A DNA stretch of 64,000 nt, from NCBI GenBank assembly GCA_025602905.1, contig JAHLKI010000010.1, forward strand, positions 620,001-684,000. Direction: 5' to 3'. The translations under genes were made by a program, and so were the position numbers. The notes below the pieces were generated by a model. It was not told the DNA's origin and did no database searches. It saw nothing but the letters and a program-made list of their open reading frames with translations. This document shows, piece by piece, positions 59,298 to 61,512 of the stretch (within the stretch, counting starts at the first letter, position 1; each line of letters opens with the position of its first letter). This stretch comes from Phlyctochytrium arcticum. Its lineage: Eukaryota; Chytridiomycota; Chytridiomycetes; Chytridiales; Chytridiaceae.

Positions 59298-61512
59298 CTA
59301 CATTCCAGCAAGTTGTTTAGCGTCATCATCCGTGTAGCCGAGCAAATACAGGACATTCCGCAGACTTGTTTGGTTGATGCGGGCGCGGGCCTGGGGTTAA
59401 AAACAGTAAGCCAAAATGAAGTGTGGGATTGAAAGAGTTTGATGCTTCTTATACCTCCTTCTGAACACGGGGCTTGGCGTTAAAGGCAATGCCCAGACCG
59501 GCCGCAGCCAGCATCCACAGATCGTTTGCACCATCGCCAACGGCAATAACCTATACGTCAATCGTCAGATCCATTGATACCGGCGTGACCGAGTTAGTAA
59601 CAAACCTGCTCGGGAGTAATGGCCTCAGCTTGAGCAATCACATCCAACAACTCTGCCTTCCTCATGCCATCCACAATCGGTCCAACCGTCTCCCCCGTCA
59701 GGGTAAGTCCATCCGACGAGACCTTCAACTGATTCGCAAAAGCATAGTCCAGTCCTAATTGGTTCTTGACGTGAAGTGCAAGCGGCATGAATCCGCCCGA
59801 GATGACGGCCAATTTGAATCCCAATCGTTTTAAGGCAGAACAGAGGAAGTGGGCACCCTCAGTGAAGGTTAGCTGGGCTTTGACGGTTTCGAGGACGGAG
59901 ACGGGGGTTCCCTTGAGTAAAGAAACACGTCGACGCAGGGATTCCTTGAAATCAATTTCCCCGTTCATGGCAGCTTCGGTAATTTTCTGGAAACGGGCCA
60001 GCCGTTCTTAGTTTTTGCAACCAAAAAAAAACAGAGTTCAACTTACTGCTACTTCAGCGACGACACCGGCATGCTTGGCGATTTCGTCAATGACCTCTTG
60101 CTGGATCAGAGTCGAGTCCATATCAAAAATGACCAACCGCTTGTGTTTGCGGTAGACATCATTCAACTGAAGTGCCACATCCGTTCCAAAATCACTACTC
60201 ATTTGGAACAAGGCGGCACGGAGCTGATCAAAGTCAACGTCGCTGGGGACGGATAGGCGGTACTCGATTGAGCAAAGTTTTTCACCGGCGGCAGAGAGAC
60301 GGGTCATTTTCTCCACCGAGATGCGTTTGTCGAGCAACAGGCGAGTCCATGCTTCCAAAAATTTTGAGGATAAACCGTGTTGGTTCAATACCGTGGCTGT
60401 ATATTTAATGCGGTTCTCGTAGGGCGCGTCTTCCAATGACTTTGACGCGGCATCGCCTTTGTTGGTGTCCAATACATCAAACAAGAGCGTGGCGTCCCAT
60501 TTGCGGGATGATTCTGCCAGATCGCGAAAGACATCTACGTTTTCTGATCCGAGTCGCATGATACAGCCAAAGGTGACATTGTGGTACAACCGCGACAAGA
60601 CAAAGTCTTCGATTTCGCAATTGTACCGAGCCAAGTTTTCTAGAACAGCGCCAATAATATCTGTACCGTGTGGACCCGTCATGGTCACCAACACTTTTTG
60701 GTGCGGGAGTAGTGAGGCAGGTGGAAAGTAATTTTTGGGTGGGTGTGCGGATGTAGGCGTATTTATGGAAATGGATAGTCCCTGATCTATGACGATCGGA
60801 CTCGGCGGTGGGATGGGAGTGCGATTACCGGCGGGGGACGATGTACCGCTCACATGATCCATGAGACGCTTCTTGAGCGTAGAGAGCTCTTCAGAACGAT
60901 AGAAGGGTTGTGCGGACAGGCGGATGATGTACTGCTCACCGAGACGGAATCCCGAATGTCGGTCATTCTTTTTCAAGATCTTTGTGATACCTGCAAACCA
61001 GAGAATAGAGGTGTTGAGTTTGGGTTACTGGGCAGGCGACTGTTATCAATGCACTGACCCGTGTAATTGAGAAACACAAATTTCTCGAGCTTAACGACAT
61101 CCTGCAAAAGATTTGTTCCAGTACTCGTCTGACTCTCGCTTCCATCAGCAGCCTCGGCCCGCGCCACAAGATTCTGACATTCCTGTTCATATGTTGCCGC
61201 AAATCGTTGGATCTGCTGATCCAGCAAGCGAAAGAATTCCGCCACGGCCGGCTGCAAACGGGATATGCGAGACTCGAAAAAAGACGCAAAATCTATAGAC
61301 ATCGATTCAGCTGCTGGTGGGGAGCTCGTCAAGCCGTGGGGTTTGATGTTTGTCTTGATGTGTGCTTTGAGAGTGCCATAGTCTATGCAACTGCTGGCCC
61401 ATTCCGCCGGAAGGCTGGCTTGCCGCTCGGAGAGGAATCTATGTTTGAAGATCAGACTGGTGCTCTCAACGAAAGTCACAGGCTGGGTGGTCACTTACTT
61501 TCCGAATTTCAT
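59298..61512 (-). CDS. SPX-ACT-ACT-phosphoserine phosphatase fusion protein
   Basis: Six exons (61512-61499, 61438-61059, 60990-60047, 59986-59606, 59550-59455, 59390-59298) join in phase to give 635 aa. Residues 1 to about 175 are an SPX domain. It starts MKFGKFLSERQ and has Tyr25 and Lys29 in [11 protein letters not shown], plus the basic patch ITKILKKND (Lys135, Lys138, Lys139), the positions that bind inositol pyrophosphates in this family. A Pro-rich linker (about 180-228) leads to two ACT-like domains ([12 protein letters not shown], about 230-300; [13 protein letters not shown], about 328-410). The HAD phosphatase follows, with FDMDSTL (Asp421, Asp423), ISGGF (about 509) and [11 protein letters not shown] (Asp579, Asp583). 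SerB catalyses the last step of serine synthesis and releases phosphate. SPX domains report phosphate status through inositol pyrophosphates. The join at GITK falls inside SPX itself, so it is not two adjacent genes. Confidence 0.88.

Follow-up and report, generated by a model that had tools for sequence, protein, structure and literature searches.

SPX domains are described, in the accessible parts of the literature, mostly from transporters, a polyphosphate polymerase, ubiquitin ligases and signalling proteins that handle phosphate. In the parts available, overviews of the SPX proteins of fungi and plants list transporters, VTC, Pho81, RING proteins and rare plant fusions, but no SPX-phosphoserine phosphatase. 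A gene with this combination lies on the minus strand at 61512-59298 of a 64,000-nucleotide stretch of the chytrid Phlyctochytrium arcticum (assembly GCA_025602905.1, contig JAHLKI010000010.1, positions 620,001 to 684,000), here called the window. It has six exons and 635 codons, and in its product an SPX domain is followed by two ACT domains and a HAD phosphoserine phosphatase of the SerB type. Judged from its sequence, the product is probably a phosphoserine phosphatase whose activity would be tuned by inositol pyrophosphates (PP-InsPs) through the SPX domain; the reaction concerned releases phosphate and completes serine synthesis.

Vtc4 of the VTC complex, an SPX-TTM polyphosphate polymerase, likewise carries an N-terminal SPX domain followed by a catalytic domain, and the complex is controlled through SPX. 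In the available text on yeast VTC, the SPX pocket of Vtc4 consists of a phosphate-binding cluster (Y22, K26, K133) and a lysine surface cluster (K129, K132, K136), and the complex was stimulated by InsP6 via SPX-Vtc4 (PMC9911596). VTC is, however, a membrane complex that makes polyphosphate and not an amino-acid enzyme, and the VTC (TTM) catalytic domain was not among the 8 Pfam matches of the window protein up to an E value of 0.1. Proteins of the Gde1/Pho81 type, SPX-ankyrin-GDPD, have ankyrin repeats and GDE1 parts where the window protein has ACT and HAD domains. Plants and algae resemble the chytrid in having unusual SPX partners: from Selaginella, fusions of SPX with EIN3, S6PP_C and Kelch were reported in single species, with no phosphoserine phosphatase partner in the part of that survey available (PMC8717665). 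S6PP_C is the C-terminal part of a sugar-phosphate phosphatase, and the nearest precedent found in the literature accessible is the protein of a single lycophyte in which SPX is joined to this C-terminal domain of a sucrose phosphatase (PMC8717665).

On the enzyme side, the mycobacterial SerB2 proteins (ACT-ACT-phosphoserine phosphatase; PDB 3p96, 5jlp, 5is2) have the same domains without SPX. According to its title, structure 5jlp of M. avium SerB2 has serine at the ACT domain, and the oligomeric state of M. tuberculosis SerB2 is reported, in the text available, to shift with L-Ser (PMC10564941). The short phosphoserine phosphatases of Chytridiales and Pezizomycetes belong to the same HAD lineage as the window protein; with the family models used here they had no SPX match and little or no ACT match.

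The original prediction had named no SPX-phosphoserine phosphatase as known, and none was found in the literature searched for SPX together with phosphoserine phosphatase, SerB or serine biosynthesis; subscription papers were mostly outside the reach of the search, and a mention elsewhere is possible. In the accessible text of PMC7614388, phosphoserine phosphatase occurs only as a structural match and SPX only in the title of a reference. Co-mentions of "SPX domain" and "SerB" in the partial texts retrieved described no fusion, SERB being a funding board there. The protein itself is already in public databases, under automatic names and with SPX listed among its Pfam domains. As a domain architecture, the fusion is conserved widely and, it appears, undescribed; it is a variant of the SPX-regulated protein.

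Structure of the fused gene and its domains

The six exons (61512-61499, 61438-61059, 60990-60047, 59986-59606, 59550-59455 and 59390-59298) are separated by five introns of 55-68 nt, all with GT...AG borders. The spliced frame is open to the TAG at 59300-59298, and an in-frame TAG is located 7 codons 5' of the ATG. The 635-residue product matches a public P. arcticum protein (P0001) letter for letter. Splicing, domain models and this identity confirmed what had been proposed from the letters alone, one spliced gene that joins a complete SPX domain to two ACT domains and a HAD phosphatase of the SerB type, and the two introns named in that proposal (61058-60991 and 60046-59987) were both correct. 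The proposal had also used the exon junction within the SPX core as its argument against separate neighbouring genes. The fusion holds, but the junction is weaker evidence than exon 3 (60990-60047), whose uninterrupted frame takes in the second half of SPX and both ACT domains and extends beyond the catalytic DxD. As this exon alone spans the SPX core to the HAD domain, no choice of splice sites can part SPX from the enzyme.

Single-frame sequences from other sources point the same way. In 19 of 19 inspected environmental open reading frames (ORFs; lgn/jgi sources), a single frame leads from SPX through ACT into the first part of HAD, so that the joined frame is obtained without any assumption about splicing. 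The same 19 ORFs depart from the family sequence exactly at the residue of intron 3 of the window gene (59987-60046, within the HAD domain), which is how unspliced genomic DNA would be expected to behave and suggests that the position of this intron is common to other organisms. A mis-joined model of two neighbouring genes was rejected on the basis of exon 3, the recurrence of the fusion in many genera and in an aphelid transcriptome proteome, and the single-frame environmental ORFs; we give it practically no chance, and take the fusion to be genuine and not the quirk of one gene.

An exon-by-exon SPX search of the genome returned 8 places without the window locus, a result that by itself speaks against confirmation of SPX here; it was attributed to introns 1 and 2, which cut the domain. 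Other SPX genes in this chytrid (L001, L002, L003, L005) are an SPX-CitMHS transporter, an SPX-RING, an SPX-ankyrin-GDE1 C2 and an SPX beside VTC in adjacent frames.

For comparison, 240 distinct proteins including P0001 were collected with three protein searches, which yielded 60 matches among 3153 candidates, the best 120 of 7998 and the best 120 of 7999, the third search covering proteins only up to about 579 residues; the set consists of best matches and is not a census. Domain models were built from 19 seed family proteins, and SPX was called at >=60 bits and HAD at >=300 bits.

The SPX domain (residues 1-182, 60839-61512, split by introns 1 and 2) was recognized by Pfam PF03105 with 46.9 bits (cut-off 27.8) and its predicted structure has the N-terminal helical hairpin and three-helix bundle of the SPX fold. 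Residues Y25, K29 and K139 align with the phosphate-binding cluster of Vtc4 and K135, K138 and R142 with its lysine surface cluster, the codons Y25-K29 being located at 61366-61380 and the segment KILKKNDR, with the other four residues, at 60959-60982. Only one of the six positions differs, R142 replacing K136 of Vtc4. Counted over the SPX-bearing rows with a letter at the column, Y25 is retained in 117/118 rows (11 of the 129 rows are gapped there and not counted), K29 in 117/119, K135 and K138 in 128/128 each and K139 in 129/129; at position 142, 113 of the 129 rows have R and 15 have K. P0128 and P0132 are the rows that deviate at one of Y25 and K29. The Tyr and three Lys of the pocket had been predicted to be retained, and the pocket as a whole is near-invariant in the family. 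Mean conservation of the six pocket columns was 0.975 as compared to 0.557 for the whole SPX domain, a value that none of 20000 random six-column sets equalled. The SPX sequence drifts while the ligand pocket stays constant, and the domain is likely to be a PP-InsP receptor.

SPX could also be mainly a structural or oligomerization element with InsP6 bound constitutively. SPX pockets do bind InsP6 as well (PDB titles 5ijj and 5ijp), and M. tuberculosis SerB2 is governed by oligomer switching according to the available text (PMC10564941). The fast divergence of SPX outside the pocket is, however, more than would be expected of a purely structural core, and we regard this explanation as distinctly unlikely.

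Two ACT domains precede the phosphatase, as in SerB2. ACT1 (residues 229-306, 60467-60700) matched ACT_6 (PF13740) with 21.1 bits, slightly under the cut-off of 23, and ACT2 (residues 325-408, 60161-60412) was placed by alignment and fold, without a Pfam score in the window protein. The predicted fold matched SerB2 over residues 227-635. The GxDxPG loop of ACT1 in M. avium SerB2 is replaced by GPHGTDI (PHGTDI at 60656-60673; TGVDQPGV in mycobacterial SerB2 versus TGPHGTDI here), and SerB2-like serine feedback is therefore not claimed for this enzyme. The motif G.HGTDI was found in 158 of the 240 proteins, 128 of the 129 with SPX (P0142 is the only one without PHGTDI) and 30 of the 111 without; across the fungal SerB lineage the PHGTDI loop is near-invariant, with or without SPX. 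GxDxPG at the start of ACT1 was seen in M. avium SerB and in all five red-algal proteins with a visible loop. Eleven rows lacking both SPX and PHGTDI have a visible ACT1 loop, and seven of them carry GxDxPG (three from Galdieria, those from Pyropia and Cyanidiococcus, P0203 and P0231); P0192, P0222, P0225 and P0232 keep GxD and not PG, so that GxDxPG is not universal outside fungi. As the loop differs from that of the SerB enzymes in which serine binds ACT or switches the oligomer, the change suggests that serine feedback may be altered in the fungal lineage.

The phosphatase domain (residues 412-635, 59301-60151, split by introns 3-5) scored 266.1 bits with the NCBIfam equivalog model serB (TIGR00338; cut-off 144.15), 80 bits with PF00702 (cut-off 26.4) and 62.7 bits with PF12710 (cut-off 27). 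D421 and D423 of the motif DMDST (60110-60124) and E430 are conserved in all 103 rows of alignment A1. The serine of the S509-G-G motif (59792-59800) is found in 89/89 rows with a letter (14 gapped), D579 and D583 of GDGAND (59521-59538) in 89/89 and 90/90 (14 and 13 gapped), and K556 is likewise conserved in all of the 89-90 rows with a letter. The roles of these residues (DxD, S, K, DxxxD and the substrate-side Glu) are presumably those known from phosphoserine phosphatase structures. The catalytic residues of the DxD, SGG and GDGAND motifs, said earlier to be kept, are thus present in every aligned row with a letter. By these scores and residues the window protein is predicted to be a phosphoserine phosphatase, the enzyme for the final step of the phosphorylated serine pathway.

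Serine pathway and neighbouring genes

In the whole genome, the serB cut-off was passed at the window locus only. Searches with TIGR00338 and PF12710 for a second phosphoserine phosphatase gave 12 other serB matches, all under the cut-off, although a divergent or intron-split enzyme could escape them; the one other PF12710 match over its cut-off was rejected, being located in a P-type ATPase frame. A serC gene over its cut-off is present. Sequence is no certain guide to substrate, and moonlighting has been reported for SerB2 in the text available (PMC10564941), so the phosphatase might act mainly on a phosphoprotein or a phosphate-storage phosphometabolite, with serine synthesis not its role. 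Against this stand the score far over the equivalog cut-off, the conserved catalytic residues and a genome in which this is the sole locus over the serB cut-off and serC passes its own; it is the least probable of the alternative roles considered here. The genome also contains two loci of the inositol-polyphosphate kinase (IPK) family and a member of the Vip1-type N-terminal family, so that the PP-InsP ligand is plausibly made by this chytrid.

A pyridine nucleotide-disulphide oxidoreductase gene starts at 61771 on the plus strand, 258 bp from the SPX-SerB gene and in head-to-head orientation to it. We take it to be glutathione-reductase-like. The promoter motifs CACGTG and TGACTC/GAGTCA were not found within 61513-61780. 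Elsewhere in the window, an uninterrupted minus-strand frame of 1457 codons (4772-9142) matched reverse transcriptase, RNase H, integrase zinc-binding and chromodomain families and is presumably a long terminal repeat (LTR) retrotransposon of the chromodomain kind, and another of 1348 codons (38693-42736, minus strand) matched all five Pfam domains of ELP1 (Elongator).

Distribution and history of the fusion

SPX was found in 129 of the 240 proteins, and no weaker SPX match was reported. In 106 of these, SPX, ACT and full HAD (>=300 bits) occur together, always in the order SPX-ACT-HAD (106/106). In the remaining 23 the HAD match is partial, and 19 of them are the environmental ORFs described above. 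SPX adjoins the ACT module in 129 of 129. By a hand count among the matches listed, the 106 three-part proteins span 55 named genera, 54 of them fungal, with many early-branching fungi among them, and one the aphelid Paraphelidium, a near relative of fungi, whose entry bears a Partr_v1 name and belongs to a transcriptome-derived proteome, as far as the available text goes (PMC6299283). The fungal genera include Spizellomyces and relatives, Rhizophlyctis, Piromyces, Rhizophagus and other Glomeromycotina, Mortierella and kin, Mucor, Rhizopus and kin, Umbelopsis, Endogone, Syncephalis, Thamnocephalis, Basidiobolus and Ramicandelaber; in the arbuscular mycorrhizal Rhizophagus irregularis the protein is P0030. 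Caulochytrium, one of the 55, is represented by a partial model (P0148) with an SPX remnant of 66 residues that scored 70 bits with the family model and had no Pfam SPX match. A search for the same architecture in related genomes had been proposed as a check on the fusion, and its recurrence in this many genera means that it is not absent from them. There were no basidiomycete names among the matches listed, and less similar fusions may exist in Basidiomycota or Ascomycota.

Relatives without SPX were found in Gigaspora and allies, Lichtheimia/Circinella/Fennellomyces, Dimargaris, Coemansia, Coelomomyces, Pezizomycetes and red algae and among the short Chytridiales enzymes. In Gigasporaceae and Lichtheimia, absence of SPX means that the public gene models start in or after the linker. 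The models P0099, P0100, P0112, P0107 and P0123 (Gigasporaceae), P0146, P0137 and P0139 start just upstream of ACT1 and represent either secondary losses or truncated models. Some SPX-less rows are plainly fragments or truncated models; in P0127 and P0155, for instance, the first residues lie at the ACT1 loop or immediately ahead of it.

A tree of the HAD domain was made by a quick method from 83 chosen rows of the 240, its "bact" labels being a guess. All 39 SPX-bearing rows fell inside one 51-row group (SH-aLRT branch support 92, not starred) together with 12 SPX-less rows. Six state changes account for the presence of SPX on this tree, which alone cannot tell gains from losses; one gain followed by several losses would fit. 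In NCBI taxonomy P. arcticum belongs to Chytridiales, and in the tree its protein is placed beside those of Powellomyces, Fimicolochytrium and Spizellomyces. It is possible, though less likely than not, that the enzyme is ancient, that it goes back to the common stem of aphelids and fungi, and that PP-InsPs exert direct control over amino-acid synthesis in it. SPX would have joined a SerB with a rewritten ACT1 loop, so that phosphate status assumed part of the product feedback; the enzyme would form a valve on a phosphate-releasing reaction of the cytosol, and several lineages would later have dropped SPX. The Pezizomycetes of the set would be one of these, which could explain why the fusion never surfaced in studies of model ascomycetes.

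SPX might alternatively serve for docking or localization, PP-InsP recruiting the phosphatase to a partner or a membrane, for example at the vacuole or the polyphosphate machinery, with unchanged kinetics. AlphaFold gave confident SPX and SerB2 folds, which also supplied the structure prediction proposed at the outset for each part, and between them a disordered linker (residues 183-228, 60701-60838) with pLDDT <50 across the 34 residues 185-218. Such a stretch would permit tethering without contact, and several lineages have the same enzyme without SPX. In plants, SPX proteins work by binding PHR transcription factors according to the available text (PMC13153306). No partner or membrane anchor was found, however, and the constant position of SPX beside the ACT regulatory module hints at shared control; we consider docking unlikely, though the strongest of the alternatives.

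Control by phosphate status

In tuning by PP-InsPs, the reading preferred here, InsP7 or InsP8 from the cell's own IPK-family and Vip1-type kinases would bind SPX. The bound ligand would shift the seat of SPX on the ACT-ACT core, or the oligomeric state, and thereby change phosphatase activity; with the ACT1 loop altered, PP-InsP may replace part of the serine feedback. The sign of control could go either way. There is a slight preference for a restraint by unliganded SPX that PP-InsP would release, as in VTC polymerase, where stimulation by InsP6 points to activation of the enzyme when phosphate is plentiful. Serine synthesis has also been proposed as a cellular phosphate source in the text available (PMC7864628), which points to the opposite sign, an enzyme that would open as a source when phosphate is short.

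Several observations weigh against such control. No SPX-ACT interface was predicted with confidence (models with pTM 0.62 and 0.58; flexible linker). SPX has been lost from, or lies outside, the gene models of Gigasporaceae, Lichtheimia/Circinella, Dimargaris, several Chytridiales and Pezizomycetes, so that SPX is dispensable for the enzyme. The altered ACT1 loop is not tied to SPX, as the 30 SPX-less proteins with the motif show. The first step of the pathway is loosely assigned, with matches like phosphoglycerate dehydrogenase (PGDH) at 4 places in the genome, all under the family cut-off. PF03770 is wider than the kinases that make PP-InsPs, which leaves the Vip1-type gene as the only specific pointer to the ligand. 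Finally, the pocket could be conserved for binding alone, without catalytic control.

In conclusion, gating of serine synthesis by phosphate and PP-InsPs fits the anatomy of the protein and is a well-founded idea, and the fusion suggests a link between phosphate sensing and amino-acid production. If the control is true, PP-InsPs would act directly on carbon and nitrogen metabolism, through the conserved SPX domain of a central enzyme of amino-acid synthesis, and the enzyme would be a concrete, assayable case for serine synthesis as a cellular phosphate source, as proposed in the accessible text of PMC7864628. Lineages without SPX on the same enzyme would be natural controls. The fusion occurs in arbuscular mycorrhizal fungi, whose phosphate economy matters to plants.
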